Both the position numbers and the translations under genes were made by a program. The notes under the pieces were generated by a model. That model was not told where the DNA came from, did no database searches, and was given only the letters and a program-made list of their open reading frames with translations. Shown here in pieces: positions 22,553-43,552 of a stretch of 62,836 bases of DNA (position 1 is its first letter; every line of letters starts with the position of its first letter). The stretch spans positions 1 to 62,836 of the forward strand of contig JAFSXN010000117.1 in the NCBI GenBank assembly GCA_017444015.1. Direction: 5' to 3'. Source of the DNA: Lachnospiraceae bacterium (lineage in GTDB: Bacteria; Bacillota; Clostridia; Lachnospirales; Lachnospiraceae).

Positions 22553-22584
22553 ACTCTGTTATTCTCGAATATTGAGCGTGCATC

Positions 22585-22729
22585 GTTACCATTCACGGCC
22601 GAACTGCGCAGACTTGCGCAGCTACGGCCCGATACGTAACATAGGAGATGGGTTCTGCCCATCGCCGCAGGCGATTTTACATGGCAGAACCCGTTACTAT
22701 TCGCGGCTCGAAAGGCCGTGAATAGTAAC
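22585..22729. mobile_element. Dispersed element F2, copy 1, with terminal inverted repeats and an 8-bp target duplication
   Basis: This 145-bp element has 16-bp terminal inverted repeats (22585-22600 GTTACCATTCACGGCC; 22714-22729 with one mismatch). It is flanked on both sides by the identical 8-bp CGTGCATC (22577-22584 and 22730-22737), which is a target-site duplication. Inside are nested hairpins, including GGTTCTGCC/GGCAGAACC. It has no coding capacity, so it is a MITE-type non-autonomous element. It abuts the stop codon of the kinase gene. Confidence 0.85.
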
Positions 22730-22735
22730 CGTGCA

Positions 22736-23500
22736 TCAATAATAATCAATGATCCTTTGATAGATCTCTTCATAGGAGATCTTTGAAAAATCGCTGACAT
22801 CCACAGGAATACTTATCCCTAATCCAACATCGTATTCCTTATGGGCGATGCCGCCTGCAAATTCCTCAAAGTCCGGAACCTGCTTCTCATGAATAAGCGT
22901 TTCCGGGCTGAAGTCCTCTATATGATAGCGGCTTAACAGATGGCCCGGATGTCTGTCGCCGTCGTTGCGATTTATGAACCGTTGATAGACTGTATGTATA
23001 TCTGTATAAAGAAAGATCGTGGCCGCATCATAGGAATACTCGTCAATCAGCTCCTGAAGCCTTGGCTTATGCCGCTGGTAAAAGGGATATTCCGTAAGAA
23101 TCGTCCTGCCTTCCCACATAGCCTTTCCAAGCATCAGATAAAACTCCTCGAGGGAAAACCGGTTCAGCCTGTCCTTCTGTGTCTCATTATCAAAGCCGAA
23201 CCGGTCGAATTCCTTTTCCTTCACATCATCGTAGCTTAACCGCACAATGTCGTCGCGTTCCAGAAAAGACAAAAAGCCTGTCGCGACCCCGCTCTTTCCC
23301 GTGCCTGGTCCGCCGGTTATTATAATAAGGAGCCTCTGCTTCGGAAAGTCCTTTTTCGTATCTGCCCAGTTACCCTGGGCAGATACGGCAGCCAGGGCAG
23401 CTTGCGCATTGGAAATGCCCTGGCTGCTTGGCTCCGATACTTCATTGACACGCCGCTCGCAAGTCTGCGAGCGGCTGACTGAGCAGTTACCTTTCTTCAT
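22736..23500 (-). CDS. P-loop kinase (AAA_33/zeta-toxin-like fold) with a repeat-encoded N-terminal insertion
   Basis: The 254-residue frame has Walker A GGPGTGKS at about residues 63-70, then helices and a lid region with Arg residues, giving a P-loop nucleoside or small-molecule kinase fold. The substrate is unknown. Residues 4-48 are encoded by the F1 repeat (23357-23490). Removing the repeat and one 7-bp flank (141 bp) restores the frame as M-K-K-D-F-P directly before the P-loop, so the ancestral protein was about 207 residues. No good ribosome-binding site precedes the ATG, and no other start codon lies between the repeat and the P-loop. It begins 2 bp after the aldolase gene ends, so it may be co-transcribed with the sugar operon. 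Confidence 0.75.
   Translation of the reverse strand: MKKGNCSVSRSQTCERRVNEVSEPSSQGISNAQAALAAVSAQGNWADTKKDFPKQRLLIIITGGPGTGKSGVATGFLSFLERDDIVRLSYDDVKEKEFDRFGFDNETQKDRLNRFSLEEFYLMLGKAMWEGRTILTEYPFYQRHKPRLQELIDEYSYDAATIFLYTDIHTVYQRFINRNDGDRHPGHLLSRYHIEDFSPETLIHEKQVPDFEEFAGGIAHKEYDVGLGISIPVDVSDFSKISYEEIYQRIIDYY
23357..23490 (+). mobile_element. Dispersed element F1, copy A (134 bp), inserted in frame in the kinase gene
   Basis: The left end is a perfect 12-bp hairpin, GTATCTGCCCAG/CTGGGCAGATAC (from 23358). An 11-bp stem CAGCCAGGGCA/TGCCCTGGCTG follows, then a 9-bp stem GCCGCTCGC/GCGAGCGGC, and the right end is CAGTTAC. The ends form imperfect terminal inverted repeats (GTATCTGCCCAGT versus GTAACTGCTCAGT). 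The 7-bp flanks match at 5 of 7 positions. It encodes NCSVSRSQTCERR on the minus strand. Confidence 0.82.
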
Positions 23501-23502
23501 AC

Positions 23503-24444
23503 TTAATACAGACTCTTAAGAATAGCTTCTGACTTTCCAGCACAGTTGAAGAGAACGCTTTTCTGCGCTATTTCATCAGCTATAGCCTTACGTCCGGGTC
23601 CGACGATCTTACGGGGATCGTACTCAGTCTCCGGCAGTGTGCGTATTGCCTCCCTCACCGCGTCGGTATACACCATTTTCAGACCTGTACCCACATTGAT
23701 CTTGCTCATCCCCATCTCAACGCATTTCTTAAAGTCCTCCTCCGGAACACCGGTACCTCCGTGAAGCACTAAAGGTACCCCGGTGACCTCTCTGATCTCC
23801 TTTAACAGATCAAAGCGAATCTTTGGCGCCGCCTTATAAAAGCCATGAGCCGTACCGATCGCCACCGCAAGGGCATCGATCCCTGTTTCATCAACAAAGC
23901 GTGGCACAAGCTTCGGATCGGTATAAGCCTTTCCGGCATCTTCCTCGGAAACAACAATATTATCCTCATGTCCCGCCAGCATCCCCAGCTCCGCCTCCAC
24001 TGAGCAGCCGTCAAGGCCTCTCGGGCTGTGCTTATGGGCAAAATCGGCTATCTCCTTAGATTTTTCTATGTTTACCTCATACGGTTCCTGTGAGGCATCT
24101 ATCATAACATTGGTAAATCCGACAACCACGGCATGCTTTATCATTTCCAGGTCTGTCGCGTGATCCAGATGAAGGACGATCGGAACCTCAGGGTACTGCC
24201 TTGCGATTCCCTTTGCTGTATCCGCCACCAGCTCAAGTGAGCCGATATATTTCAAAGCTCCGAGAGAAAGCATAAGTATCACCGGGGAGCTTTTACTCCT
24301 TGCCCCCTCTACGATACCCACCATCTCAGGTATGGTACTGAAATTAAAAGCACCGACCGCGTAACGCTCCTTCGGATCCTCCTTCGGATCGAGAGCCCGC
24401 TTTAATGAATCCGCCATAACCTGCTTCATAGTAACTAACGGCAT
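23503..24444 (-). CDS. Class II ketose-bisphosphate aldolase (FbaA/GatY family)
   Basis: This is a 313-residue zinc-dependent (beta/alpha)8 aldolase that cleaves fructose or tagatose 1,6-bisphosphate to dihydroxyacetone phosphate and an aldehyde. HLDHATD (catalytic Asp and zinc His), VEAELG, a second zinc His in GTAHG, and LHGGTG for phosphate binding are all present. Which bisphosphate is preferred cannot be read with certainty. As the last metabolic step of a sugar operon (31 bp after the ROK kinase gene), cleavage of the bisphosphate made by the PfkB kinase is the likely role. The start has a strong GGAGG site. Confidence 0.92.
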   Translation of the reverse strand: MPLVTMKQVMADSLKRALDPKEDPKERYAVGAFNFSTIPEMVGIVEGARSKSSPVILMLSLGALKYIGSLELVADTAKGIARQYPEVPIVLHLDHATDLEMIKHAVVVGFTNVMIDASQEPYEVNIEKSKEIADFAHKHSPRGLDGCSVEAELGMLAGHEDNIVVSEEDAGKAYTDPKLVPRFVDETGIDALAVAIGTAHGFYKAAPKIRFDLLKEIREVTGVPLVLHGGTGVPEEDFKKCVEMGMSKINVGTGLKMVYTDAVREAIRTLPETEYDPRKIVGPGRKAIADEIAQKSVLFNCAGKSEAILKSLY

Positions 24445-24474
24445 CTGATTTCCTCCTTTACCATACGGTCCCCG

Positions 24475-25449
24475 TCAAAGACGAACCGTGTCCGTATATT
24501 CACTGATCAGGCAGTACGCTCCATAGACCACTACCTTGTCATTAAGCTCTGAGAATCTCACTCTGTCAGGCGACACCGCGCTCACGGCGCATCTTTCGAT
24601 CGTCCGCATCATCTCGCCATAAAACCATTTCTTAAGATGTGTTATCCCGCCGCCGAGCACAAAAACTTCAGGATCAAACAGATTAAAATAATTTGCGAGG
24701 CCCGCGCCTAAGTATCTGCCCTCCTCCTGGAGAAAGGCCAGAGCATATTCATCTCCGGCTTCCGCCGCATTTCCCAGAATCTTCCCCGAGATCCTTTCCG
24801 GGTCATAAGCTATCTCTTCAAACGCCAGAGACTTAACGCCGTTTTTCATGTCCCGGAGCATCCTTCGGTTCATAGCCGTCCCCGAGGCGTAAAGCTCAAG
24901 GCAGCCGTTCGCCCCGCAGTTGCAGGGAATCCCATTGATATCTATGGACATATGCCCCAGCTCCCCGGCTGAACCTGTAAAGCCGCGGTATACCTCGCCG
25001 TTTATGACTATACCGCCTCCGCAGCCGGTACTCACCGTCATATAGACAACGCTGGATGCCCCCTCTGCCACTCCGAGACGCTGCTCCGCAAGCGCTCCCA
25101 GATTTCCGTCATTATCCAGCCTTACCGGTACGCCGAATTCCTTCTCAAGCTTCGGTCCTAACGGGAAATCCTTCCACCCCATAAGAGGCACATTTATTAT
25201 CACGCCGGTATTATAGTCGAGGGGTCCCGGAGCCGCAGCGCCTATCCCTTTTAAGCCTGCCGCTTCTACGCCGGTTTTTTCAAGTACCTCTCTGCCTACT
25301 GAAACGGTATTGTCAAAAACCGCATCGCAGCCCTCATAGGTCTTCGAGGGAGCCACGATGAAAAGATCCTTAACAGGCCTGCCCTCTTCTGAAAAAAGAG
25401 CTCCGGTAGTCTTCGTACCGCCTATATCCAAGATCAGATAATATCCCAT
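24475..25449 (-). CDS. ROK-family sugar kinase
   Basis: This is a 324-residue ROK protein. The N-terminal phosphate loop DIGGTKTTG (residues 7-15), the catalytic Asp region DNDGNLGA, the ExGH motif (GELGHM) and the Cys-rich zinc motif CNCGANGCLE are all present. There is no N-terminal helix-turn-helix, so it is a kinase rather than a NagC/XylR-type repressor. ROK kinases phosphorylate glucose, mannose, fructose, allose or N-acyl sugars. Beside an Rbs/Als-type transporter and an epimerase, an allokinase (AlsK-like) or hexokinase role is plausible. It lies 6 bp downstream of the permease gene. Confidence 0.92.
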   Translation of the reverse strand: MGYYLILDIGGTKTTGALFSEEGRPVKDLFIVAPSKTYEGCDAVFDNTVSVGREVLEKTGVEAAGLKGIGAAAPGPLDYNTGVIINVPLMGWKDFPLGPKLEKEFGVPVRLDNDGNLGALAEQRLGVAEGASSVVYMTVSTGCGGGIVINGEVYRGFTGSAGELGHMSIDINGIPCNCGANGCLELYASGTAMNRRMLRDMKNGVKSLAFEEIAYDPERISGKILGNAAEAGDEYALAFLQEEGRYLGAGLANYFNLFDPEVFVLGGGITHLKKWFYGEMMRTIERCAVSAVSPDRVRFSELNDKVVVYGAYCLISEYTDTVRL

Positions 25450-25455
25450 TGTCCC

Positions 25456-26442
25456 TTAATTCTGCGCTTTCTTCTGTGCCATATCCAATACAACGGCCAG
25501 GATGATGATACAGCCTATGACCACATTCTGCCAGTAAGAATAAATCTGCAGAAGATCCATACCTGTCTTTATGACCGCTATAACCGCGCAGCCGAACATC
25601 GCGCGCGCTACGGAGCCGGAACCGCCCGAAAGAGATGTTCCGCCAAGTACCGTTGACGCTATCGCGAACATCTCATACGTATTACCGGCATTGGGCTGAC
25701 CGTTCTGCAGCTTTGACGCTATGCAGACACCGCAGAGCCCGGCGGTAACGCCGCACAGAACATGGCTTATGAGAGTGACCTTGCGCACATTTATACCGCT
25801 TAAATGGGCCACACTCTTATTACTTCCGACCGCGAATACATGGCGGCCGAAAACGGTCTGCGAAAGCAAAATATGCATTGCCGCGACGACTATCACAGTA
25901 AAGATAACGATTACGGGAATCGCGCCGTTTGGCATGCTCTCCGTAGGAAGTACTCTGCTTGCGCCCAGAAAAGCGAAATTATCGGCAAGCCCGTAGACCG
26001 GCTGCCCTCCGGTCATGATAAAGGCCACTCCCCGCAGGGCCGTCATGGTTGACAGAGTACATATCATAGGGATAACGTCGAGGTATGCGATAAGCGTTCC
26101 GTTCAGGAGACCGCAGAGACCGCCGACCACTATTCCGACAACGATCAGCAGGATTATGGCAAAGGGTATGCTCATATTCGGGAACATCAGACCCGCATAT
26201 GCCGCGATGATACCCGCCACTCCGGCGATCGACCCTACAGAAATATCGATACCGCCAAGAATGATAACATAGGTAAGACCGGAGGCCAGAAGCGCGTTCG
26301 TACACATCTGCGACAGGATATTACTTATGTTCCGGGAACTGAAAAACGTTTTGCTCGCGATACCGAAACCGATACACAACAGGACCAGTACAACAACAAC
26401 TATGTTTTCACTGATCATCTTTCTTACTTTTGCATTATTCAT
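25456..26442 (-). CDS. Sugar ABC transporter permease (RbsC/AlsC type)
   Basis: This is a 328-residue permease of the ribose/allose/xylose (CUT2) class with about 8-10 transmembrane helices. The cytoplasmic loop GSNKSVAHLSGINVRKV is the conserved ATPase-contact loop of this family. It forms a homodimer with the ATPase encoded 17 bp upstream. The CUT2 class transports monosaccharides, mostly pentoses and aldohexoses, via a single ATPase with two domains. Confidence 0.95.
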   Translation of the reverse strand: MNNAKVRKMISENIVVVVLVLLCIGFGIASKTFFSSRNISNILSQMCTNALLASGLTYVIILGGIDISVGSIAGVAGIIAAYAGLMFPNMSIPFAIILLIVVGIVVGGLCGLLNGTLIAYLDVIPMICTLSTMTALRGVAFIMTGGQPVYGLADNFAFLGASRVLPTESMPNGAIPVIVIFTVIVVAAMHILLSQTVFGRHVFAVGSNKSVAHLSGINVRKVTLISHVLCGVTAGLCGVCIASKLQNGQPNAGNTYEMFAIASTVLGGTSLSGGSGSVARAMFGCAVIAVIKTGMDLLQIYSYWQNVVIGCIIILAVVLDMAQKKAQN

Positions 26443-26459
26443 CTGTTTCCTCCTCTGGC

Positions 26460-27959
26460 CTAAGACGCTTCCGTCGTGATACTTGCAAGCCCAATTAAAG
26501 ACTGTTCGTTTATCTCGCCTTCAAAAAGCTCTCCGCTTATGCGGCCCTCCCGCATAACTAAAACTCTGTCCGCAACGCCGATTATCTCCGGCATTTCAGA
26601 AGATATCATGATGATCGCGCCCCCGGCTTCGACAAAATCGTGCATCAGGGCGTAAAACTCCGACCGCGCGTTAACGTCGATACCCCTGGTGGGTTCATCC
26701 AATATCAGGATATTGGAATCAGCGGCAAGCCATTTTCCGAGGATCACCTTCTGCTGGTTACCACCGGATAAGGTATTTAAGATCGTATACATATCCGGAG
26801 CCTTTACCCTGAGCTTTTCCATATATTCTCTGGTGACCTTCTTTTCCCAGGCCTTGTTCACAAAACCAAACCTTTTCGCATGCGCGGGAAGAGAAGGCAG
26901 TGAAGTATTCTCAACTATGTTTTTGGCTAAGAGCAGACCCGTCCTTCGCCTGTCCTCCGTAACAAGCCCGATATTATGGCCTATGGCCCTGCTTGGATTC
27001 TCTATCCTGATCTCCCGCCCCTCCACAAAGATCCTTCCGCTGTCAGCCTTTGTGGCGCCAAAGACAGTCTCCATAACCTCTGTTCGGCCGGCCCCTACCA
27101 GACCTGAAAACCCGAGTATCTCCCCTGCGTAAGCCGTAAAGGAGATATCCTCGAACACTCCCTTCCTTGTCAGATGCTCAACCCTCAGCATCTCCTTCCC
27201 TCTGGTATGTTTATGCTTATTGTAATAATCGCCCATCTCACGGCCTACCATGCTGTTTACGATCTGCTTTTCCGTAACGTCCGCAACCATCATAGTGTCA
27301 ACCTTGCAGCCGTCTCTGAGCACCGTAACCCGTTCACATATCATCGTCAGCTCTTTCAGCCGGTGGGTAATATAAATGAGCGTAACATTCTTTTCCTTAA
27401 GTATTTTTATCTGTGTAAAGAGCGCATCTATCTCGTGCTCCGACAGAGACGATGTAGGCTCATCCATGATAACGACCTTTGCGTTCTTCGAGATCACCTT
27501 CGCAATCTCTATCATTTGCTGCTGAGCAGCGTTCAGAAGGCCCGCGACCTCGGTCGCTTTAAGATTTACCTTCATAAAATCCAGTATATCCTGAGTCTCC
27601 TTATTCATCTTCGCTTTATCTAAAAGTCCGTTCTTTTTCCTTATCTCTCTCCCCAGCCATACGTTCTCGGCTACAGTCAGATCCTTCGCAATGCTTAACT
27701 CCTGATGGATTACAGCAATACCGGCATTGATCGCCTGTCCCGGATTTGTAAAGTCAACCGGTTTTCCTTCGTATATCACCTGTCCTTCCGTCGGCGTATA
27801 TACTCCGGATATGATCTTTATCAGAGTCGATTTTCCTGCTCCGTTCTCTCCAACGAGGGTATGCACTTCACCGGGATAGAAATCTATGGATACGTCAGTC
27901 AGGGCCTTCACTCCGGGAAAAACCTTACTGATATTTTTTACCTGTAGGATCGGTTCCAT
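26460..27959 (-). CDS. Sugar ABC transporter ATPase with two nucleotide-binding domains (RbsA/AlsA type)
   Basis: This is a 499-residue tandem ATPase. The first domain has Walker A GENGAGKST, Walker B VVIMDEPTSSL and the start VKNISKVFPGVKAL. The second has a degenerate P-loop GLVGAGRTE, signature LSGGNQQK and Walker B LILDEPTRGID. A degenerate second site is normal in RbsA-type proteins. It energises monosaccharide import with the downstream permease. Confidence 0.96.
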   Translation of the reverse strand: MEPILQVKNISKVFPGVKALTDVSIDFYPGEVHTLVGENGAGKSTLIKIISGVYTPTEGQVIYEGKPVDFTNPGQAINAGIAVIHQELSIAKDLTVAENVWLGREIRKKNGLLDKAKMNKETQDILDFMKVNLKATEVAGLLNAAQQQMIEIAKVISKNAKVVIMDEPTSSLSEHEIDALFTQIKILKEKNVTLIYITHRLKELTMICERVTVLRDGCKVDTMMVADVTEKQIVNSMVGREMGDYYNKHKHTRGKEMLRVEHLTRKGVFEDISFTAYAGEILGFSGLVGAGRTEVMETVFGATKADSGRIFVEGREIRIENPSRAIGHNIGLVTEDRRRTGLLLAKNIVENTSLPSLPAHAKRFGFVNKAWEKKVTREYMEKLRVKAPDMYTILNTLSGGNQQKVILGKWLAADSNILILDEPTRGIDVNARSEFYALMHDFVEAGGAIIMISSEMPEIIGVADRVLVMREGRISGELFEGEINEQSLIGLASITTEAS

Positions 27960-27986
27960 ATTAATCCTCTCTTTCGATACTTTTTT

Positions 27987-28026
27987 AAAGCCGCCCGAAC
28001 AGGTATCTGCCCGCCCGGACGGCTTT
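27987..28026 (-). promoter_or_regulatory. Intercistronic stem-loop between binding-protein and ATPase genes
   Basis: An inverted repeat AAAGCCG.CC...GG.CGGCTTT lies between the stop of the binding protein gene and the ATPase start. It is followed by TTTAAAAAA on the minus strand, not a clean T tract. A structure here typically stabilises the upstream mRNA or partly terminates, giving excess binding protein over membrane components. Confidence 0.55.
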
Positions 28027-28054
28027 CACCAGCTACTCGATCGTATTCCCGTGA

Positions 28055-29074
28055 TCAGTCAGCGGCATTCTCTGCTGTGATGATATAAGGAGCGATGAAT
28101 ATCTTCTTATCAGTAACCGTTCCCTCGGTCATAAACTGGATCATCTCGTCAACGATCCTTGCGCCGATCTCCTTGGGATTCTGGGAAATCTCGGATACCC
28201 AGTATTTTCCTGTATCAGGGCTTAAGATAGCTTCCTTTGCTTCCGGATTGCCGTCAAATCCGATGATAAGGCAGTCAGAGCCCGCCGCCTTGATAGCAGC
28301 CAGAGCGCCGGTAGCCGCAGGATCACCAACCGTGAATACAGCCTTTACTTCGGGATTCGTCGTAAGGATGTTTGTCATGATCTTCTCAGCTTCGTTCGCG
28401 TCTCCCTTGTAATCATAACCGGTAAGAACGTTTCTGTCAGCTCCCTCAAGAACCTCAAGACAGCCGTCCTCTCTGTCCTTGCAGGAAGAAGCCGTAGGAT
28501 AACCGATGATAGCAACCGTATCGCCGTCAGCTGTCAGACGGATAAGTTCCTGTCCGCCAAGGCGTCCGCCCTCTAAGTTATCCGTTCCAACGAAGCAGTT
28601 GATTGCGTCAGACTCAGAGGTACAGTCGAAGGTGAACATCTTAACGCCGTCAGCATCCGCGTTCTCAATGGCGGGCTTAACGCCTGCAGCATCGTTACAG
28701 GCAAGCGCTATGGCATTGCAGCCGTCAGCTGTAAGAGTCTCAACCTTCTGCGTTGCGATAACGGGATCAAGGCTTGCATCCAGAACCGTGTACTGGTCGC
28801 TGGAAAGACCCTTGGCTTCGCACTCAGCTTCAATACCGTCACGGATCAGCTGATAGAAGGTATGCTCAAAGGAGCCTACTACAAAACCGAACTTCAGTGA
28901 CGAAAGATCAGCCCCGCCCGCATCCGTAGCTGCGGCTTCCTCTGCGGGAGCGGCTTCTTCAGTTTTTGCTTCGGCCGCGGGTGCAGTAGCCGTAGTAGCA
29001 GGAACGCCTGCGCAAGCCGCAAGCGAGAGAGCCGTTGCCACTGACAATCCCAGTGCTAAAATCTTTTTTACCAT
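28055..29074 (-). CDS. Sugar ABC transporter substrate-binding lipoprotein (RbsB/AlsB type)
   Basis: This is a 339-residue periplasmic-binding-protein-type-1 lipoprotein. The signal ends in LAAC, with Cys21 as the likely lipidated residue, followed by an Ala/Glu/Thr-rich linker (22-53). The domain starts at LKFGFVVGSFEHTFYQLIRDGIE and includes the hinge and ligand residues typical of ribose/galactose/allose binders. It captures the sugar at the cell surface for the RbsA/C-type importer. The start has a strong GGAGG site. A 104-bp gap separates it from the isomerase gene upstream, and no clear internal promoter is visible. Confidence 0.94.
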   Translation of the reverse strand: MVKKILALGLSVATALSLAACAGVPATTATAPAAEAKTEEAAPAEEAAATDAGGADLSSLKFGFVVGSFEHTFYQLIRDGIEAECEAKGLSSDQYTVLDASLDPVIATQKVETLTADGCNAIALACNDAAGVKPAIENADADGVKMFTFDCTSESDAINCFVGTDNLEGGRLGGQELIRLTADGDTVAIIGYPTASSCKDREDGCLEVLEGADRNVLTGYDYKGDANEAEKIMTNILTTNPEVKAVFTVGDPAATGALAAIKAAGSDCLIIGFDGNPEAKEAILSPDTGKYWVSEISQNPKEIGARIVDEMIQFMTEGTVTDKKIFIAPYIITAENAAD

Positions 29075-29178
29075 TTTTTTTCCTCCTTTTTTCTGCCCGT
29101 TACCCGGGCTGTTTTGTAGAATCTATAATTCAGCTTTCGCTAAACTATCCATCTGTGCCGATTACGAATCATTATCTG

Positions 29179-29865: not shown

Positions 29866-29889
29866 AATAATCCTCCTGCGCCGGTTTCT

Positions 29890-30942: not shown

Positions 30943-30961
30943 AATCTGTCCCCTATCCCTG

Positions 30962-31546: not shown

Positions 31547-32252
31547 CCGCCTTTCTGTTCAGCCTGTCTTCCGTTTCCTTTAAACGTCTGAGGCTGCCTT
31601 CTATGTCATCCTTATGTATACAGGTGCTTCCGACAGCAAAGATATTCGCGAAAGCCCCTTCACCAAACTCCCTTATATTTTCCTCGGAAATTCTGCCATC
31701 AAGGACTATCTTCGTATCAAGGCACCGACTCCTTATCATTTCACTTAGCTCTCTTACCTTACGGGAAGCGTAGGGCACCTGGCCTTCTCCCGCAATCTGG
31801 GCATAGCCGGGATTAATCAGCATCAAAAGCACGCTGTCGCATTTTTCCAGTACGTACTCCAGGACATTAAGCGGAGTCGCTGGCTTTAAGGCCACTCCAG
31901 CTCGGACTCCGCGGTTATGTATGTAGTTCAGCAGTCCGTCTATATGAAGCGCTGTTTCCGCATGAAAGCATATCTGGGAAACTCCGGCATCCAGAAGCTC
32001 ATCCACAAAAAACTGAGGAGCCGTCGTCATAACATGCGCCTCAAATTCCAGCTCGGTCTTGCGTCTCAAATGCTTTACGGCATCTAAGCCCAAAGGCATG
32101 CTGGGAGAAAAGTGGCCGTCGAGAATATCAATATGCACCATCTCAAGACCGCTGTCCTCAATAAGCCTTACCGCTTTTGTCATCTCACTGAGATCAAACG
32201 TGATGAGCGAGGGTGAGATCAAAAACTGTTTTTCCCAGACCACTCTCTTCAT
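31539..32252 (-). CDS. Ribulose-phosphate 3-epimerase family protein (Rpe/AlsE-like)
   Basis: This is a 237-residue TIM-barrel. Rpe landmarks are ISPSLITFD, VHIDILDGHFSPS (catalytic Asp), EAHVMTTAP (metal His), LKPATPL and NPGYAQ. The last Asp motif reads LDGRIS rather than the usual DGGI, and the NPG loop differs from pentose enzymes (NPGFGGQ). These departures and the operon point to a hexulose substrate such as D-allulose 6-phosphate (AlsE activity), giving fructose 6-phosphate. It overlaps the PfkB kinase gene by 4 bp (ATGA). Confidence 0.86.
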   Translation of the reverse strand: MKRVVWEKQFLISPSLITFDLSEMTKAVRLIEDSGLEMVHIDILDGHFSPSMPLGLDAVKHLRRKTELEFEAHVMTTAPQFFVDELLDAGVSQICFHAETALHIDGLLNYIHNRGVRAGVALKPATPLNVLEYVLEKCDSVLLMLINPGYAQIAGEGQVPYASRKVRELSEMIRSRCLDTKIVLDGRISEENIREFGEGAFANIFAVGSTCIHKDDIEGSLRRLKETEDRLNRKAGA

Positions 32253-33208
32253 AGCTTTCCGAACTCCTTACGGAAAGCTTCTATTTCCGCCCTGTTCGGA
32301 AGCGAGGAAATGGCCCCCTTGGCGCGTACGCACAGCGATCCGCTTATATTCCCGTAATCAAGCGCATCCTTCAGATAGCCTTCGCCTATATCCTCTGCCT
32401 TTGCCGCGCCGAGTATCAGGAGTCTGGACAGAAAGCCGCCCCAGAATGCATCGCCGGCTCCTGTCGTATCAGCAATTTTATCCTTCTCCACCCCATAGCC
32501 GGGATGTCTTATACTTCCTCCGTTAAAAAAGCACTCGGCTCCGTCCGCGCCTAAGGTCTCAACGATCACGGTAAGCTGCTTGTCCTTCATAAGCTGCGGT
32601 ATGGCAGTCCTTCCGCCGATCATATCAATCTCTTCATCCGATACCTTTAACAAGTCCACATAGGGCAGGATACCCATAACCTCCCTTGCGCACCTGTCCC
32701 TGTCATCCTTCCAGGCTACGTTCCGGTAGTTGATGTCAAAGCTTACAAGCTTTCCAAGCCCGTGCGCTGTCTTAAGGGTATATATCGTCGCTTCCCTTGC
32801 GTTTCCTTCCGAAAGGGAGAAAGAGCCGCCATGTACAAGCTTCGTATCCAGAAGCAGATCCCTGCTGATCTCAGAGCTCTCAAGCATCATATCCGCTCCG
32901 GGCTTTCTGCTGAAGGTAAAGCTTCTCTCACCATTTTCATCGAGAGATACAAAGGCCATGGTCGTGATCGCTTTATCTGTCATCCGGGGACATAACGCCT
33001 CCACACCCTCCTCTTTCAGGGTATTTAACAAAAACCTCCCAAAGTCGTCAGCTCCGACCTTGCAGTAGATACCGGATTTCAGTCCGTTTCTTACAGCAGC
33101 GATAGCCACATTCGCGGGAGCTCCCCCCGCGTTCCTGATATAACTGCCTTTTTCCTGTCCGGGAAGAAAATCTATAACCATTTCCCCGATAGAAACTACA
33201 TCGTACAT
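32249..33208 (-). CDS. PfkB-family carbohydrate kinase (fructokinase-like)
   Basis: This is a 319-residue ribokinase-fold kinase. The start is the ATG at 33206-33208 (MYDVVSIGEMVIDF), chosen for a GGAG site 7 bp upstream; the open frame extends 19 codons further without support. It has the N-terminal GGAPANVA sugar-binding motif and the C-terminal anion hole and catalytic base DTTGAGDAFWGGF. Fructokinase or 1-/6-phosphofructokinase activity is likely. It is the first gene of the main sugar operon and is served by a promoter at 33256-33284. Confidence 0.9.
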   Translation of the reverse strand: MYDVVSIGEMVIDFLPGQEKGSYIRNAGGAPANVAIAAVRNGLKSGIYCKVGADDFGRFLLNTLKEEGVEALCPRMTDKAITTMAFVSLDENGERSFTFSRKPGADMMLESSEISRDLLLDTKLVHGGSFSLSEGNAREATIYTLKTAHGLGKLVSFDINYRNVAWKDDRDRCAREVMGILPYVDLLKVSDEEIDMIGGRTAIPQLMKDKQLTVIVETLGADGAECFFNGGSIRHPGYGVEKDKIADTTGAGDAFWGGFLSRLLILGAAKAEDIGEGYLKDALDYGNISGSLCVRAKGAISSLPNRAEIEAFRKEFGKL

Positions 33209-33255
33209 TTTATTTCTCCATAACGGAATGTATGGTTTCTCGTCATTCTTATACA

Positions 33256-33284
33256 ATATTACCACTGCTATACTGTAAAGTCAA
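33256..33284 (-). promoter_or_regulatory. Promoter of the main sugar catabolism operon
   Basis: The minus strand has -35 TTGACT (complement of 33279-33284), a 17-bp spacer and -10 TAATAT (complement of 33256-33261), about 50 bp before the PfkB start. No LacI-type palindrome or regulator gene is seen nearby. Confidence 0.75.
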
Positions 33285-33355
33285 AATATTATTTGCTCTT
33301 TTCACTAAAAACCTCTGATAATCTTTCTGTTTTTTGTGCAAAAGAACGAATAATC

Positions 33356-33522
33356 GTAACTGCCCAGTCAGCCGCTCGCAGACTTGCGAGTGGCGTATCA
33401 ATAAAGTAGCAGGACCAAGCAGCCGGGCGCGCAGCCCATGGTTGCGTAGCAACCAACGGGGCATTTCCAATGCGCAAGCTGCCCCGGCTGCCGTATCTGC
33501 CCAGGGTAACTGGGCAGATACG
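33356..33522 (-). mobile_element. Dispersed element F1, copy B (167 bp)
   Basis: This is an inverted copy of the element at 34623-34789, with the same length and near identical sequence, including an extra internal hairpin GGTTGC/GCAACC that copy A lacks. Flanking 7-mers AATAATC (33349-33355) and AATGATC (33523-33529) match at 6 of 7 positions. It ends 8 bp from the stop codon of the second PfkB gene and lies between the two PfkB genes. Confidence 0.85.
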
Positions 33523-33530
33523 AATGATCC

Positions 33531-34466
33531 TTAACCATCGATCATCGTTGTTATGGTTTCCGGCGAAATATCCCCCTCCATAGGTCCGAAGGCCGCCGCA
33601 TTCAACGCGCCTGCTGCTGAAGCTGTTTTAAGCGCCTGCAAAAGAGGGATATCCTGTACCAGGCTTGCAAGGAAAGCACCGTCAAAACAGTCCCCCGCTC
33701 CCGTCGGATCCGCCTGCTCTACCTTGTATACAGGACAGCTGACTGATTCTCCATCCTTTGTGAATAACGTGCTGCCTCTGGATCCGTCCTTCATGACGAC
33801 CATCTTCATCTTCGGGTAGGTAAAGCACTTTCTGACCGCAGAAGCCACATCCGTCTGCCCTGTAAAAGTCAGAAGCTCCTCCCTTCCCGGAAGAAAGATC
33901 GACGCAGAGGTAAGTACCTCCTCAAGTATCCTGTCCAGATCTCCGTTTCCCTTAAGCTCTGTCCTGATATTAGGATCGAAGGAAATATCCGCGCCCTTCT
34001 CCTCAAAAATATGCATGGTCTTTAATATCTCGTCCGCGAACTCTTTCTTTGCCATAAGTGAGCAGCCCATGATATGCATAAACTTAACATACTCAAAGTC
34101 GTCCTTTCCCGGAGCCTTCGCCTCCACCGCGGGAGTATTCCCCATATGGAAGAGGAATTTTCTCGAACCGTCCGAAAAATATGTAACAAAGGCGCAGCCT
34201 GTGGATACAGTTTTATTTACAATCACATGACTCGTATCTATCTTAAGCTCTTTCATCCTGTCCAGTATGCACTTCCCAAAATCATCGTCTCCGACCCCGC
34301 TGATCAAAGCAACTCTGCTGCCAAGCCTGGCTGCGGCGCTTGCGCAGATAGCGGGGGCCCCGCTTGGGAATGGTCCCCTGAAAAGTCCCTCCTTATACAG
34401 CTCCTCCCCCTCCTTATCCCTCATGATCTCAACAATAGCTTCACCCATTATAAGAATATCCGTCAT
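33531..34466 (-). CDS. PfkB-family carbohydrate kinase flanked by inverted F1 elements
   Basis: This is a 311-residue ribokinase-fold kinase starting at the ATG at 34464-34466 (MTDILIMGEAIVEIMRDKEG), with AAAGGAGAAGG directly upstream; the longer frame to 34547 has no such site. The GPFPSGAPAICASAAARLG substrate motif and DPTGAGDCFDGAFLA catalytic motif are intact. The profile is close to 2-keto-3-deoxygluconate or fructo-/tagatose kinases, and the substrate is undetermined. It is a separate unit, with its own upstream region and F1 copies C and B on either side, so it may have been added to the sugar locus as a cassette. Confidence 0.88.
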   Translation of the reverse strand: MTDILIMGEAIVEIMRDKEGEELYKEGLFRGPFPSGAPAICASAAARLGSRVALISGVGDDDFGKCILDRMKELKIDTSHVIVNKTVSTGCAFVTYFSDGSRKFLFHMGNTPAVEAKAPGKDDFEYVKFMHIMGCSLMAKKEFADEILKTMHIFEEKGADISFDPNIRTELKGNGDLDRILEEVLTSASIFLPGREELLTFTGQTDVASAVRKCFTYPKMKMVVMKDGSRGSTLFTKDGESVSCPVYKVEQADPTGAGDCFDGAFLASLVQDIPLLQALKTASAAGALNAAAFGPMEGDISPETITTMIDG

Positions 34467-34504
34467 ACCTTCTCCTTTCCGCGATTTATACTCAATAACG
34501 TAAA

Positions 34505-34590
34505 TAACTGCCGATACATAAAACGTATAACGAGTGAACGCGCTCATCAGGAACAGTTAAAACGGCAGTTAATTGCGTTCACGAGTATAC
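34505..34590 (-). promoter_or_regulatory. Interleaved inverted repeats upstream of the second PfkB gene
   Basis: Two inverted repeat pairs interleave: TAACTGCCG (34505-34513) with CGGCAGTTA (34563-34571), and GTATAACGAGTGAACGC (34525-34541) with GCGTTCACGAGTATAC (34575-34590, imperfect). They could be paired repressor sites or a structured 5' leader. I cannot place a confident -10/-35 pair here. Confidence 0.45.
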
Positions 34591-34622
34591 AAGTCTGTGT
34601 TGAACTATTGATACTATAATAT

Positions 34623-34789
34623 CGTATCTGCCCAGTTACCCTGGGCAGATACGGCAGCCGGGGCAGCTTACGCATTGGAAATGCCCCGTTGGTTGCTACG
34701 CAACCATGGGCTGCGCGCCCGGCTGCTTGGCCCTGCTGCTTTATTGGTACGCCACTCGCAAGTCTGCGAGCGGCTGACTGGGCAGTTAC
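34623..34789 (+). mobile_element. Dispersed element F1, copy C (167 bp)
   Basis: Its left hairpin GTATCTGCCCAG/CTGGGCAGATAC and right end CTGGGCAGTTAC form imperfect terminal inverted repeats. It is flanked on both sides by an identical 7-mer ATAATAT (34616-34622 and 34790-34796), the clearest target duplication of the F1 family. It lies opposite in orientation to copy B, enclosing the second PfkB gene. Confidence 0.88.
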
Positions 34790-34828
34790 ATAATATCACT
34801 GATCATAGCCGGGATAAAGCAGGAATCG

Positions 34829-34857
34829 AAAAACCCCGGGTGCTTCTTCACCCGGGG
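34829..34857 (-). terminator. Rho-independent terminator of the rplJ-rplL-rpoB-rpoC transcript
   Basis: On the minus strand the stem CCCCGGGTG/CACCCGGGG (34834-34857) with a 6-nt loop is followed by five Ts. It lies after rpoC and the 57-codon ORF, and marks the end of the rpo operon. Confidence 0.9.
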
Positions 34858-34874
34858 TCCATCACTATGATCCA

Positions 34875-35048
34875 CTATTCCTGCGATACCGGAGGGGTCT
34901 GGTATAACATACGTTCCAACCAAACTTTCTCGTTTTCCAAAAATGCTATTGTTTCGGTTGCGTTTTCCTTTCTTGCAAGTTTTAATGCATCTTCAATTGT
35001 CTTCAGTTCCCGCAGCAAAGTAACATTTAATTCCTTCTCACCTGGCAT
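34875..35048 (-). CDS. 57-residue hypothetical protein downstream of rpoC
   Basis: A short frame with ATG at 35046-35048, GGAG 10 bp upstream, and stop TAG at 34875-34877. The sequence begins MPGEKELNVTLLRELKTIED and is almost entirely helical and charged (LKLARKENATETIAFLENEKVWLERML), suggesting a small helical hairpin or coiled coil. It is 37 bp after rpoC and 17 bp before the operon terminator, so it should be made with RNA polymerase. It is not L7Ae, which sometimes follows rpoC in Firmicutes. I do not recognise it. Confidence 0.6.
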   Translation of the reverse strand: MPGEKELNVTLLRELKTIEDALKLARKENATETIAFLENEKVWLERMLYQTPPVSQE

Positions 35049-35085
35049 AATCTCTTTCTCCTTTCAGACAAAAAGCAATTCTGTT

Positions 35086-38000
35086 TTACGCATCCTCTCC
35101 CTCAAGTACCTCCTCGCTCTCGGCGGGGGCTTCCGCTCCCTCTTCTTCCGAAGAATAAACGTCAACGGTTTCCTCCTCGTCCGAGGCAGGTTCCTCTGAG
35201 GTATCCTCCTCCTGCACTTCTTCCGGCTTCGGTCTCGAAGCATCCGCGATACTGGTATCCAGAATCACGTCACGGTAACGTCTCATACCGGTTCCCGCAG
35301 GGATCGGCTTACCGATGATAACGTTCTCCTTAAGTCCGATCAGAGGATCGACTTTACCCTTGATCGCAGCCTCCGTCAGTACCTTCGTCGTCTCCTGGAA
35401 GGAAGCGGCCGACAGGAAGGAATTCGTCGCAAGAGCGGCCTTCGTAATACCGAGCATGATCTGCTTACCGTCCGCAGGCTTCTTGCCCTCGGCGATCAGC
35501 TTCTCGTTCATATCCTCATACTCCAAAAGATCCACGAACGCGCCCGGCATATACTCGGAATCGCCGTTGTCCTCGATCTTGACCTTCTTAAGCATCTGAC
35601 GGACGATGACCTCGATATGCTTATCGTTGATATCAACACCCTGGATACGGTAAACCTTCTGTACCTCGCTGATCATATAATCCTGAACCGCGTTGATCCC
35701 CTTGATCTTCAGGATATCATGCGGATTTACGGAACCGTCGGTCAGCGGATCTCCAGCCTCGATATCGATCCCCTCGGGATTATCCTCGATCTTTGCCGTA
35801 ACCCTTGAGCCGAAGGGGATCAGATAGCGTTTTGCCTCTCCGGTCTCAGCGTTTGTTACAACGACTTCTTTCTTCTTCTTTGTATCCTCTAATACGGCGT
35901 GCCCCGGGATCTCCGAAATGATCGCAAGTCCCTTCGGCTTTCTGGCCTCGAAAAGCTCCTCGACACGGGGAAGACCCTGTGTGATATCGTCACCGGCGAT
36001 ACCGCCTACGTGGAAGGTCCGCATCGTCAGCTGCGTACCCGGCTCACCGATGGACTGCGCCGCGATGATACCGACAGCCTCACCGACCTGAACCATCTCA
36101 CCGGTCGCCATATTCGCGCCGTAGCACTTGGAGCAGATACCGTTATGGCAGCGGCAGGTCAGGATCGTACGAATCTTTACACCCCTGGTATCCGGGTTGT
36201 CAATGATCGCTCCGTCCTCATCCTCGATCATAAACGGAACACCGTTCTCATCGACACCCTTTGAAAGCACAAGATCCGCTCTTCTGGGGGTGATCATATG
36301 ATTCTTCTTAACAAGAACATTCCCTTCCGCATCCAGAATATCCAGACAGGTATATCTTCCGAGAATACGATCCCGTAAGGTCTCGATCTTCTCCTTGCCG
36401 TTTAAGAACGCCTTGACGTACATTCCGGCAAGTTCAAGTTCTTCCTGACCTTCGAGACAATCCTGCTCCCTGATAATCAGCTCCTGGGAAACATCTACCA
36501 GACGCCTGGTCAGATAACCCGAGTCCGCCGTACGAAGCGCCGTATCGGACAGTCCCTTTCTGGCTCCGTGGGCTGACATAAAGTATTCCAGAACGTCCAG
36601 ACCCTCACGGAAGTTTGACTTGATGGGCAGCTCAATCGTACGACCGGTCGTATCCGCCATCAGGCCTCGCATACCCGCAAGCTGCTTGATCTGCGCGTTG
36701 GAACCACGGGCTCCGGAGTCTGACATCATATAGATATTGTTATATTTATCAAGTCCCTTGATCAGAACCTCGGTCAGCTTCTCATCGGTAACGTGCCAGG
36801 TATCGATAACGCCCTTGTAACGCTCCTGCTCGGTCAGCAGACCCTTTCTGAAGTTCCTCGAAATCTGGTCCACCTGATTCTGGGCCTTTTCCAGAAGCTC
36901 CGACTTCTCCTCCGGAACGGTCATATCCGAGATCGAAACCGTCATGGCCGACTGGGTCGAATACTTATAACCCATGGCCTTGATATCATCCAGTACTTCG
37001 GCTGTCTTTGTCGCGCCATGAATATTGATGACCCGCTCCAGAATCTGCTTTAAGTGCTTCTTGCCGACATGGAAGTCGATCTCCGGCTTCAGGAAATTCT
37101 CCGGATTTTCTCTGTCCACAAAGCCCAGATCCTGCGGTAAGATCTCATTAAAGATCATTCGTCCGAGGGTCGTATTGATCATACCGGAAACGATCCTGCC
37201 CTCGCTGTCCTTCTTCTCGACACGGACGTTGATTCTCTGGTGCAGCGTGATATCGCCGTTCTCGTAAGCTAAGATCGCCTGATTCATGGAATGGAAGTAT
37301 CTTCCCAGCAGATCCACGAACTGGCAGATGACCCACCGGTCACGCTCAGGATCCACGCAGACTTTGATAAAGGTATTCGGCGTCAGACGAACGGGAGACA
37401 GCTTCTCCTTCTTCTTATCATCCGCCTCCGTATAGGTCCTGTAGGCCTCAACCGCCTCGTCCACCGTATTATAGGAGAGCGTTACCTCTTCCTTAAAATC
37501 CGGATCCGTCGAATAGTCGCGGTACTTGTTCATAGTCAGGTAATAGATCCCAAGGACCATATCCTGCGAGGGAACCGCAACCGGTCCGCCGTCCGAAGGC
37601 TTTAACAGGTTATTCGGGGACAGCAGAAGGAATCTGCACTCCGACTGCGCCTCTACCGAAAGCGGAAGATGGACTGCCATCTGGTCTCCGTCGAAGTCCG
37701 CGTTATAAGCGGTACAAACCAACGGATGGAGCTTGATCGCCTTACCCTCAACCAGGATCGGCTCGAAGGCCTGGATCCCCAGTCTGTGCAGCGTAGGCGC
37801 ACGGTTTAACATCACCGGATGCTCCTTGATAACATCCTCGAGTACATCCCAGACCTCGGGACGAAGTCTCTCGACCATCTTCTTCGCGTTTTTAATATTA
37901 TGGGAGGTCCCGTTTGCCACAAGCTCCTTCATAACGAAGGGCTTAAACAGCTCGATCGCCATTTCCTTGGGCAGACCGCACTGATAGATCTTCAGCTCCG

Positions 38001-39063
38001 GACCTACGACGATAACCGAACGTCCCGAATAGTCCACTCGCTTTCCCAGCAGGTTCTGACGGAAACGTCCCGATTTTCCCTTTAACATATCCGAAAGCGA
38101 CTTCAAGGCACGGTTTCCGGGACCCGTAACGGGTCTTCCTCTTCTGCCGTTGTCGATCAGGGCATCTACCGCCTCCTGAAGCATACGCTTTTCGTTTCTT
38201 ACGATAATATCCGGCGCCCCAAGATCCAAAAGTCTCTTGAGACGGTTATTTCTGTTGATGATCCTTCGATAGAGGTCGTTCAGATCCGACGTCGCGAAAC
38301 GTCCGCCGTCTAACTGTACCATAGGACGAAGATCGGGCGGAATTACGGGGATCACATCCATGATCATCCACTCCGGCATATTCCCGGAGCTCCGAAACGC
38401 CTCGACTACCTCCAGTCTCTTTATGATCTTCGCACGCTTCTGGCCGTTGGCGTTTTCAAGCTCCTCGCGAAGCTCTGCCGCCTCTTCGTCAAGGTCGATG
38501 GCCACTAACAGTTCCTTGATCGCCTCCGCGCCCATTCCGACACGAAAATCTCTGCCCCATTCGTTATAGGCCCTCTGGTATTCCTGCTCGGTCAGGATCT
38601 GCTTGTACTTCAGATCCGTCTCGCCGGGATCCATAACGATATAGTTCGCGAAATACAACACCTTTTCGAGATTCCTCGGAGAGATATCGAGGATCAGGCC
38701 CATTCTGCTGGGAATCCCCTTGAAATACCAGATATGGGAAACCGGGGCCGCAAGCTCGATATGGCCCATCCGCTCTCTCCGGACAGATGCCTTTGTTACC
38801 TCAACGCCGCAGCGGTCGCAGATCACGCCCTTATAGCGGATCTTCTTATACTTTCCGCAGTGGCACTCCCAGTCCTTGCTGGGTCCGAAGATCCTTTCAC
38901 AGAACAGTCCGTCCTTTTCGGGCTTTAGAGTCCTGTAATTAATCGTTTCAGGCTTTTTGACCTCTCCCCTCGACCATTCCCTGATCTTTTCGGGCGAAGC
39001 AAGCCCAATCCTAATCGCGTCGAAGGTAAGCGGTTCGTAAACGTCTTTGTTATTTTCAGCCAT
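35086..39063 (-). CDS. rpoC: RNA polymerase beta' subunit
   Basis: This is a 1325-residue beta' subunit from the ATG at 39061-39063 ([20 protein letters not shown]), chosen for GGAG 6 bp upstream; an in-frame ATG six codons earlier overlaps the rpoB stop. The N-terminal zinc ribbon ([21 protein letters not shown]), the catalytic NADFDGDQM with three Asp that hold magnesium, and a second zinc site ([13 protein letters not shown]) are intact. The C-terminus carries an acidic tail (about the last 45 residues, [14 protein letters not shown]), longer than in many relatives. It follows rpoB with a 17-bp gap. Confidence 0.97.
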
Positions 39064-39080
39064 TCTCTGCTCCTTTACCA

Positions 39081-42000
39081 TCAGTCTTCATAATCCGCGT
39101 TTTCAAGATCCAGATCGCCCTCGGGGAAATCCTCCTCTAAAGCCTCCGGGAATCCGTCTTCAGGGAATTCAGGCTCCGGATAATCCTCCTCGGCGCTGTC
39201 TCCGTTATCATCATAATCGTTATCGTAGTCGTCATTCTCAGGTTCGACGTTATTTAACTCACCGCCTGAGAATTCCTGCTCAGTATAGCCTTCCCGCTTG
39301 AAAGACTCGCCGCCCCTGCTGTACTTTCTGGAATCTTCCTCAAGGATCGAGCGGAAATCCGTATCGCCGTAATCAACGGTTTCTCCGATCTCAACCTCGC
39401 TGTTGTCCGCACGAAGGACTCTGACATCAAGGCCCAAGGACTGCAGCTCTTTCAGAAGAACCTTGAAGGATTCAGGAATTCCGCTGTCAGGGATATTGTC
39501 GCCCTTAATGATCGCCTCGTAGGTCTTGACACGCCCGATAACGTCATCCGACTTCACGGTCAAAATCTCCTGCAGCGTATAGGAAGCACCGTAGGCTTCA
39601 AGCGCCCATACCTCCATCTCTCCGAAACGCTGTCCGCCAAACTGCGCCTTACCGCCGAGAGGCTGCTGCGTAACAAGGGAGTACGGGCCGGTCGAACGGG
39701 CATGGATCTTATCGTCGACCAGATGGTGGAGCTTGAGGTAATGCATATGTCCGATGGTTACAGGATTGTCGAAATACTCTCCCGTCCTTCCGTCTCTCAG
39801 CCTTACCTTTCCGTCTCTGCTGATCGGAACGCCCTTCCAGAGCGCTCTGTGTTCTCTGTTACTCGAAAGAAAGTTATAAACCTCTCCCGCAAGCTCTTCC
39901 TTGTGAAGTCCGCTGAAGGTCGGTCCATCCGGATCAACGTTCGGATCCCTCTCCGCTTCCTTCTTCGCTTCCTCCTCATCGAAGGGAAGATTTACATAGT
40001 CGTTTGCAAGCTCCAGGGTACTTACGATATCATCCTCGTCCGCTCCGTCAAATACCGGAGTCGCAACGTCGAAGCCCAGAGCCTTTGCCGCAAGCGACAG
40101 GTGGATCTCAAGGACCTGCCCGATATTCATTCGGGACGGAACACCCAGAGGATTCAGAACGATATCCACGGGACGGCCGTTCGGAAGATACGGCATATCC
40201 TCCACCGGCAGAACTCTTGATACAACACCCTTGTTTCCATGACGGCCAGCCATCTTATCGCCGACCGAAATCTTTCTCTTCTGCGCAATATATATTCTTA
40301 CGGACTGATTTACTCCCGGAGGAAGCTCATCGCCGTTATCTCTTGAAAAGATCTTGGCATCTACAACGATACCGTATTCGCCATGAGGCACCTTTAAGGA
40401 GGTATCTCTTACCTCTCTGGCCTTTTCTCCGAAGATCGCCCGAAGCAGCCGCTCTTCCGCGGTAAGCTCCGTCTCTCCCTTGGGAGTTACCTTTCCGACC
40501 AGAATATCGCCGGCACGTACCTCCGCGCCGATTCGTATGATTCCTCTCTCGTCCAGATCCTTTAAAGCCTCTTCACCGACACCGGGAACGTCTCTCGTTA
40601 TCTCCTCAGGACCGAGCTTTGTATCTCTGGCCTCGGATTCGTGCTCCTCGATATGGACCGAGGTATAGACATCGTCCTGTACCAGACGCTCACTCAGAAG
40701 TACCGCGTCCTCGTAGTTATAGCCCTCCCAGGTCATAAACGCGATCAGAGGATTCTTCCCTAAGGACAACTCTCCGCCGCAGGTCGAGGGTCCGTCCGCG
40801 ATAACGTCTCCCGCCTCGAAATGCTCACCCGGCTCGACGATCGGCTTCTGATTATAGCAGTTGCTCTGGTTGCTTCGCATAAACTTCGAAAGCCGGTAAA
40901 TCTCCCTGGTTCCGTCGTCATTCGTCACGCTGATCTCGCTGCTGGTGGCGTAATTTACGGTTCCGGACTTTCTCGCTACTACACAGACGCCGGAGTCTAC
41001 CGCTGCCTTCGGCTCCATTCCCGTTCCTACAACCGGAGCCTCGGTCGTAAGCAGAGGCACCGCCTGGCGCTGCATGTTCGAGCCCATCAGGGCGCGGTTC
41101 GCGTCATCATTCTCCAAAAACGGAATCAGCGCCGTAGCGACGGAGAATACCATCTTCGGAGAAACGTCCATATATTCAAACATGGATTTATCATATTCGG
41201 AGGTCTCATCCTTGAAACGGCCCGCGACCATACGGCGGAGGAAATGCCCCTCATCATCGATGGGCTCGTTCGCCTGGGCGACGTGGTAGTTATCCTCCTC
41301 GTCCGCCGTCATATAGACAACCTCGTCCGTAACCACCGGATTTTCCGGATCGGAGTGGTCGATCTTCCGATAGGGAGCCTCGACAAAGCCGTATTCATTG
41401 ATCCGCGCGTAGCACGCAAGGGAGTTGATCAGACCGATGTTCGGACCTTCCGGGGTCTCAATCGGACACATTCTTCCGTAATGGGAGTAGTGTACGTCTC
41501 GAACCTCGAATCCGGCACGATCCCTGGAAAGACCACCGGGTCCCAGAGCAGAAAGCCTTCTCTTATGCGTCAGCTCTCCTAACGGATTGTTCTGATCCAT
41601 AAACTGAGACAGCTGGGAGGATCCGAAGAACTCCTTAACCGCTGCCGTGACCGGCTTGATATTGATCAGGGCCTGCGGGGAGATCCCCTCCAGATCCTGG
41701 GTCGTCATACGTTCTCTTACGACACGCTCTAATCTCGAAAGACCGATCCGGTACTGGTTCTGCAAAAGCTCACCCACCGCGCGGATCCTTCTGTTTCCGA
41801 GATGGTCGATATCGTCGTCATATCCGATCCCGTACTCAAGATGCATATTATAATTTATAGAAGCAATGATATCTTCTTTTGTAATATGCTTGGGAACCAG
41901 ATCGTGCACTCTCTGCCTTAAGGCCTCGGAAAGCTCCTCCTCGTTTTCTCCGAACTCATCGAGGATCTCCTTCAGTACCGGATAGTAGACCTTCTCCGTA

Positions 42001-43085
42001 ATGCCGAATTCCTTCGGATTACAGTCAACAAACGCGCGAAGATCGACCATCATATTCGAAAGGACCTTGACGTTTCGCTCCTCGGTCTGGATAAAGACAT
42101 AGGGGATCGCCGCATTCTGGATCGCCTCCGCCTTATCTCCCGTCAGCTTTTCGCCGGCACTTGCCAGGATCTCTCCGGTTTCCTGATTTACAACATCCTC
42201 CGCCAGCACCTGATTCTTCAGACGCATCTTGAAGGATAGCTTCTTATTAAATTTATATCTTCCGACTCTGGCCAGATCATAACGCCTGGGGTCGAAGAAC
42301 ATGGCATTTATAAGGCTCTCCGCGCTCTCTACGGTCAGAGGCTCGCCGGGACGAATCTTTTTATACAGCTCAAGCAGACCCTCCTGATAATTTGTCGCCA
42401 CATCCTTGGTAAAGGACGCAAGGATCTTCGGCTCATCCCCGAAGAGCTCCAGGATCTCCTGATTGCTTCCGATCCCGAGGGAACGAATTAAGACCGTTAC
42501 GGGAACCTTTCTCGTCCTGTCTACACGCACAAAGAACACGTCGTTCGAGTCTGTTTCATACTCCAACCACGCGCCTCTGTTGGGAATTACCGTCGAAGAA
42601 AACAGCTTTTTACCGAATTTATCACGGCTGATCGCATAGTAGATGCCGGGGGATCTTACGAGCTGGCTTACGATGACACGCTCCGCTCCGTTGATCACAA
42701 AGGTCCCGGTTTCCGTCATTAACGGGAGATCACCCATGAAAATATCGTGGCTGATGATTGTTCCGCTTTCCTTATTATAAAGCCTTACATTGACCTTCAA
42801 GGGAGCGGCGTAAGTAGCGTCTCTGTCTTTGCACTCCTCGATCGAGTACTTCACGTCATCCCGGCAGAGCTTGAAATCCACAAACTCTAAGCTCAGATGT
42901 CCGTTGTAGTCCGTGATCGGAGAAATGTCATCAAATACTTCCTTCAGACCTTCATCCAAAAACCACTGGTAAGAATTCTTCTGAACCTCGATCAGATTCG
43001 GTATATCCAGTACCTCCTTCTGTCTCGAAAAGCTCATCCGGGTATTCTTTCCAGCGGAAGTGGGACGTATCCTGTTCTTTTCCAT
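39081..43085 (-). CDS. rpoB: RNA polymerase beta subunit
   Basis: This is a 1334-residue beta subunit. The start is the ATG at 43083-43085 ([20 protein letters not shown]), with an AGGGG site. The open frame runs 93 codons further but that part is made of the F1 repeat and leader. The rifampicin-binding region is wild type ([30 protein letters not shown], in two halves here), and the C-terminal [21 protein letters not shown] is intact. The C-terminal tail is long and acidic (Glu/Asp-rich, about 75 residues, DDYDNDYDD). It forms the catalytic core with beta'. Confidence 0.97.
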
Positions 43086-43116
43086 CGACGTTTCACCCCT
43101 GTTAGCACTTATTTTT

Positions 43117-43249
43117 CGCATCTGCCCAGTCACGCCTGGGCAGATGCGCGGCGGACGTTGCTTGCGCATCGGAAAACGTCCGCCGCCGGCCCCGAATCTT
43201 TTGTTGGCACGCCACCCGCAAGTCTGCGGATGGCTGACTGAGCAGTTAC
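43117..43249 (+). mobile_element. Dispersed element F1, copy D (133 bp), in the rpoB 5' leader
   Basis: The left hairpin GCATCTGCCCAG/CTGGGCAGATGC has compensatory changes relative to other copies (GTATC to GCATC on both arms). The middle stem GGCGGACGT/ACGTCCGCC differs in sequence but keeps the fold. Flanks TATTTTT (43110-43116) and TATCTTT (43250-43256) match at 6 of 7. It ends 31 bp before the rpoB start. The compensatory changes suggest the hairpins are maintained. Confidence 0.82.
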
Positions 43250-43550: not shown

Positions 43551-43552
43551 TA

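Follow-up and report, generated by a model that had tools for sequence, protein, structure and literature searches.

The window analysed here, a stretch of 62,836 nt from a Lachnospiraceae genome, contains four copies of a short palindromic element, F1, together with a full and a truncated copy of a distinct palindromic element, F3. The elements are listed below with the target duplications flanking them, given as matching bases out of eight.

22585..22729, forward strand: F3, 145 nt, its ends resembling those of an IS66-like element on contig C24 (see below); duplication 8/8 at 22577-22584 and 22730-22737
23358..23490, reverse strand: F1 copy A, short form, 133 nt; duplication 6/8 at 23350-23357 and 23491-23498
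33356..33521, forward strand: F1 copy B, long form, 166 nt; duplication 7/8 at 33348-33355 and 33522-33529
34624..34789, reverse strand: F1 copy C, long form, 166 nt, intergenic; duplication 8/8 at 34616-34623 and 34790-34797
43118..43249, reverse strand: F1 copy D, short form, 132 nt; duplication 7/8 at 43110-43117 and 43250-43257
45020..45124, reverse strand: F3, truncated copy

Copy A is inserted in frame after codon 3 of the open reading frame (ORF) 22736-23500 (reverse strand), which encodes a P-loop kinase-like protein (Pfam Zeta_toxin/AAA_33). Copy B is flanked by ORFs 32249-33265 and 33531-34547, both on the reverse strand, and copy C carries a TAA in the frame that genic copies use. 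The start codon of rpoB follows copy D at a distance of about 32 nt, and the spacer that precedes both of them contains another palindromic stretch, at about 43357-43551 on the reverse strand (TTACCATTCACGGG...CCCGTGAATGGTAAC).

All four copies and the hairpins described for them in the initial annotation were present, but their limits required correction to those listed above. An alignment of copies from the whole genome placed the ends of F1 at GTAACTGCCCAGTC and GTATCTGCCCAG, the outer C (or G) of the CGTATC end proposed earlier being assigned to the target duplication and not to the element. The lengths first given (167 bp for B and C, 133-134 bp for A and D) became 166 (B and C), 133 (A) and 132 (D), and position 22585, taken before as the left limit of the F1 region, proved to be the start of F3. 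The long 166-nt form is distinguished from the short 133-nt form by a 33-nt insert that constitutes a hairpin. In the consensus structure of 21 aligned copies, including copy D, 9 of the 35 predicted pairs showed at least one compensatory change affecting both sides, in agreement with the compensatory arm changes noted before for copy D.

The genome to which the window belongs (G000; 3.77 Mb, 201 contigs, 94% complete) was searched for further copies, as the initial annotation had proposed. The search rendered 114 model matches, 66 of which were examined and 47 counted as full F1 copies, in 133-nt and 166-nt forms; the remaining matches comprised sister elements, pieces at contig ends, palindrome echoes and copies that were truncated or weak. 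The 7-bp target duplication first described was rejected, a length of 8 bp fitting the data. Thus, the 8-bp repeat was perfect in 14 of the full copies and matched at 7/8 in 11 and at 6/8 in 10, so that 35 of the 47 reached at least 6/8. This is above chance, given that in a shifted-flank control (1410 pairs) only 0.4% reached at least 6/8 and none 8/8. The earlier flank scores of 7/7 (copy C), 6/7 (B and D) and 5/7 (A) were recounted over 8 bp as 8/8, 7/8 and 6/8, respectively. All 14 perfect duplications began with a purine, and A or T occupied 87 of their 112 bases, compared with 53.5% in the flanks. Across these 14 sites a T preceded the left duplication in 9 cases and an A followed the right one in 10. 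F1 therefore shows the MITE features that were tested (it is short and multi-copy, and it has terminal repeats and target duplications but no transposase gene), and the earlier description holds in that the family is non-autonomous, is present in many copies and has terminal repeats that are imperfect.

What had been missed was the fusion of F1 to genes: about half of the copies, copy A among them, are in frame, with one orientation accounting for nearly all of these and one frame for most. In 23 of the 47 full copies, an ORF with its start codon upstream was open through the element, 22 in forward orientation and 1 in reverse. The forward genic copies were distributed between the two open forward frames as 19 in phase 2 and 3 in phase 0 (p about 9e-4), and of the 13 genic copies located at least 35 codons inside the ORF, 12 were forward and 1 was reverse (p 0.003). 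Read-through of F1 would be possible because 133 and 166 nt, plus the 8-bp duplication, are multiples of three and because one orientation has a stop-free hydrophilic frame. In accordance with this, the net length added by genic copies was 141 or 174 nt (144 in one copy), with an expected gain of 47 or 58 residues per host protein. C45 and C197:8992, open through F1 but lacking an upstream start codon, were not counted as genic; neither were copy D and the reverse frame of C107:18175, which have a start upstream but whose true start is likely downstream. C92 was included despite the possibility that it starts at an ATG 34 nt downstream. For the 24 other full copies, seven candidate interrupted genes were translated on either side of F1, and none was convincing.

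The palindromic element is thus located in frame inside unrelated genes. Hosts recognised by Pfam include GlmS, a TypA-like GTPase, a ROK protein, NudC, a TPP/ferredoxin oxidoreductase, CbiD, a PP-loop protein, a CAAX protease, a periplasmic binding protein and a radical SAM protein; in an NCBIfam search of seven host proteins, five gave no match. One reverse copy is in frame in a protein that, by eye, we take to be MtaB-like. At C63, a 456-codon upstream ORF reaches the element. Truncated 5' halves of F1 form the N terminus of two proteins, at L047:1488-2903 and L128:1571-2989, which from their Pfam domains we presume to be HemW-like and RimO-like, respectively.

Comparison of two host proteins with their relatives, at the sequence level, showed the latter to lack the insert. 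In GlmS it was absent from 8 aligned orthologs, and PDB chains aligned on either side of it and skipped it; the GlmS with F1 was the sole genome match at E<=1e-100 (32 of 71 candidates scored). The GlmS linker also contains about 15 further residues of non-F1 origin. The C116 membrane protein, with matches in 24 of the 37 genomes of the genus (its own included), is exactly 58 residues longer than 7 aligned relatives. As for the remaining hosts, the insert of NudC falls between the zinc ribbon and the NUDIX domain, with two PDB alignments covering both sides, and that of TypA precedes residue 53 of an otherwise normal start, PDB BipA aligning from residue 53 on. The IorA-like host gave one weak match to solved structures, which stops short of the insertion.

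Since an open frame was itself the criterion for calling a copy genic, the site was restored to its empty state for 34 copies with duplications of at least 6/8 (copy A was omitted, and 12 with poorer duplications were not joined), and ORFs of at least 100 codons across the site were scored. Fifteen forward ORFs stay open with F1 (C8, C81, C176, C186, C18, C139, C64:30000, C92, C71:13532, C197:17969, C11:4541, C116, C87, C145 and C120). With the left copy of the duplication C11:6344 gave no ORF, a stop being created by the last base of that copy; use of the right copy would add it as the sixteenth. A reverse ORF of 559 codons (C71:21228) also remains open. At C14 the ORF start lies in the duplication and is retained by its right copy, and at copy D the empty-site ORF extends above the rpoB start. 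F1 would break the reverse ORFs of C12:10205 (250 codons) and C107:23978 (195 codons), which we take to be antisense to forward genes starting 13 and 48 nt downstream; the reverse ORFs of C56:34624 (181 codons) and C197:8992 (123 codons) remain open and are probably spurious. At C70 and C97, F1 is placed two codons before the stop and the protein ends inside the element; the protein ended in this way at C70:35212-35344 (L057/L077) is very acidic. Apart from these two proteins ended near their stop, no forward insertion breaking the frame in a gene body was found at the 34 rebuilt sites, and forward phase-1 insertions in gene bodies were absent.

We consider it probable that F1 is a mobile MITE moved in trans by an IS66-type transposase, that it is readable in frame, and that harmful insertions have been purged. 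On this view, the miniature inverted-repeat element would enter AT-rich sites that begin with a purine, in many cases close to gene starts, and would duplicate 8 bp on insertion. In the proper orientation and phase, the ribosome would read through it, adding the 47 or 58 residues, and F1 would be kept in hosts that tolerate it, those insertions that break gene bodies being lost by purging. In this respect, F1 behaves like a transposon-borne linker insertion.

The same distribution might owe less to filtering. Target choice (purine-first, AT-rich, coding strand) could by itself set orientation and start clustering, the in-frame state being a by-product of length and chance openness, an account that we regard as possible but considerably less probable. 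The purine in 14 of 14 perfect duplications and their A/T content fit it, as do nine elements with their beginning 7-21 nt past the first base of a start codon and nine more at a distance of 5-48 nt upstream of a start codon that has their orientation. However, it leaves unexplained both the 19-to-3 distribution between open forward frames and the lack of forward phase-1 gene-body insertions at rebuilt sites, and, among the four open frames, hydrophilicity is highest in the one used by 19 copies (GRAVY values of -0.74, -0.18, 0.44 and 0.58, with 19, 3, 1 and 0 copies, respectively). A forward excess, 9 to 3, is also seen among copies immediately upstream of a start; the pattern is probably the joint product of selection against gene disruption and of an insertion preference for purine-first sites close to starts.

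The sister families served as a control, consisting of 18 F2/F3 places (7 of 17 F2 rows and 11 of 13 F3 rows, several of them truncated and with F3 ends 1-2 bases short; F3 has 13 match places in the genome). Only one of the 18 was in an open frame, namely the truncated F3 at 45020-45124, with 150 codons before it and 35 after it. We take it to sit in ORF 44721-45233 (forward strand), antisense to the L10 leader, an RNA located at 44757-44937 on the reverse strand. The difference from the 23 of 47 in-frame F1 copies gave p 0.0012, or p 0.0009 against the 0 of 13 full or near-full F2/F3 elements; an earlier count of 0/18 had given 9e-5. The control is therefore weaker than at first, with at most one doubtful fusion in 18. 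A phase-2 stop or a frame-shifting length was found in 0 of 22 forward genic F1 copies versus 12 of 24 others, in what is a partly circular comparison.

A more tentative proposal is that coding compatibility has evolved in F1, both lengths keeping frame and one orientation giving a hydrophilic, probably flexible linker, so that the family would amount to a natural linker insertion driven by an IS66-type transposase; we incline against it. If true, such compatibility would allow F1 to invade conserved genes and start regions while its host survives. Four of the six frames are open, an outcome that structured random sequence would give in about 6% of cases, and openness was for that reason rejected as a sign of adaptation. 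Purifying selection on the peptide, sought by counts of nonsynonymous to synonymous changes, was not seen: the peptide is not visibly constrained, since the ratio in genic copies (166:65) resembles that in other copies (179:74).

The conserved stems with compensatory changes, and solo 30-nt end palindromes beside A/T runs, would also suit an RNA-level element (a terminator, or a hairpin for processing or ribosome bypass) that is not translated because it is removed or skipped first. We find this very improbable, since an insert that is removed or skipped need not hold frame, yet gene-body insertions of F1 do; moreover, in an Rfam scan of window positions 20000-45000, F1 reached the gathering score of no family.

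Regarding the mover, IS66 elements in general have GTAA-type ends and produce 8-bp duplications. Three PF03050 matches were found in the genome, and the IS66-like element at C24 encodes a 607-aa protein with a DDE_Tnp_IS66 match between ends of GTTACTATTCACGG, the same type as those of the F3 element at 22585-22729. Relatives of the C24 transposase occurred in 11 of 299 genomes of the family, the present one included; these IS66-like relatives had ends such as GTTACTGTTCAG or GTTACTGTTCAC, and one (L176) was flanked by an 8/8 duplication. The ends of F1 agreed with the five IS66-like ends compared at up to 9/12 and 8/12 positions, the agreement being 11/12 for the sister family F2. The C24 element has close to its right end a box, TTGGTACGCC, that F1 shares, as does a related palindromic family of genome G027. 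F1, which the initial annotation could assign to no recognised family, would thus have relatives, its ends being close in type to those on IS66-like elements; in ends and duplication it resembles such elements of the same bacterial family, and the subterminal box is shared with one of them. F1 differs from the local IS66-like group (PF03050) in being geneless, and its exact ends were on no full element examined. The search for a transposase flanked by matching ends, suggested earlier, revealed no autonomous element with the exact F1 ends in the draft genomes searched, in which many IS66 contigs end inside the insertion sequence. This result, and ends that start with GTA, would be compatible with another transposase family, e.g., a REP-associated one (RAYT), which we judge unlikely given that the 8-bp duplications, the end similarity and the shared TTGGTACGCC box favour the IS66-like elements. 

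At E<=1e-6 F1 was detected in 1 of 396 genomes drawn from the family, its own. Matches within the genus were obtained in 3 of 37 genomes, in G027 only through a hairpin common to another palindromic family. G001 (UBA3814) contains two copies, one of them in frame in a 1042-aa ORF with an 8/8 duplication. A contig pattern search gave 16 stretches, of which five (Lachnospiraceae/Blautia or G001) were examined by profile, only UBA3814 matching, and viral contigs searched with a 27-nt F1 core gave 0 matches.

Short palindromes in frame inside unrelated conserved genes have been described in Rickettsia (RPE) and Wolbachia (PMC2229807, PMC10969869, PMC3767692). RPEs are palindromic repeats of 105-146 bp, their target duplication being entered as "?" in a table (PMC2229807), and the reviews consulted single out Rickettsia for frequent in-frame palindromic insertions, one of them leaving target duplications open. 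By description, and not by sequence, F1 is like these elements; it differs in having a host of another phylum (a member of the Lachnospiraceae, thus outside the Rickettsiales), clear 8-bp duplications and a candidate transposase family. ERIC in enterobacteria and QMITE1/2 in Coxiella, MITEs with some in-frame fusions (PMC2229807, PMC5896051), are likewise similar by description, although they are other elements in other hosts. A literature search gave no title on such an in-frame palindromic element in Lachnospiraceae. F1 shows an RPE-like outcome in a Firmicute of the gut, and combines it with perfect 8-bp duplications, insert-free relatives and a testable transposase family. It renders directly testable both the movement of palindromes that encode protein and the capacity of conserved enzymes (GlmS, TypA) to tolerate an insert of 47-58 residues.

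Two further kinds of palindrome were observed. The family of G027 (L112, L114 and L117) has an F1-like architecture, the TTGGTACGCC box and different stems, and includes the extra hairpin of the F1 long form. L055 and L056, around position 1501, carry solo palindromes of about 30 nt in which two F1-type ends abut; these palindromes are located next to A/T runs and may be either terminators or minimal elements.
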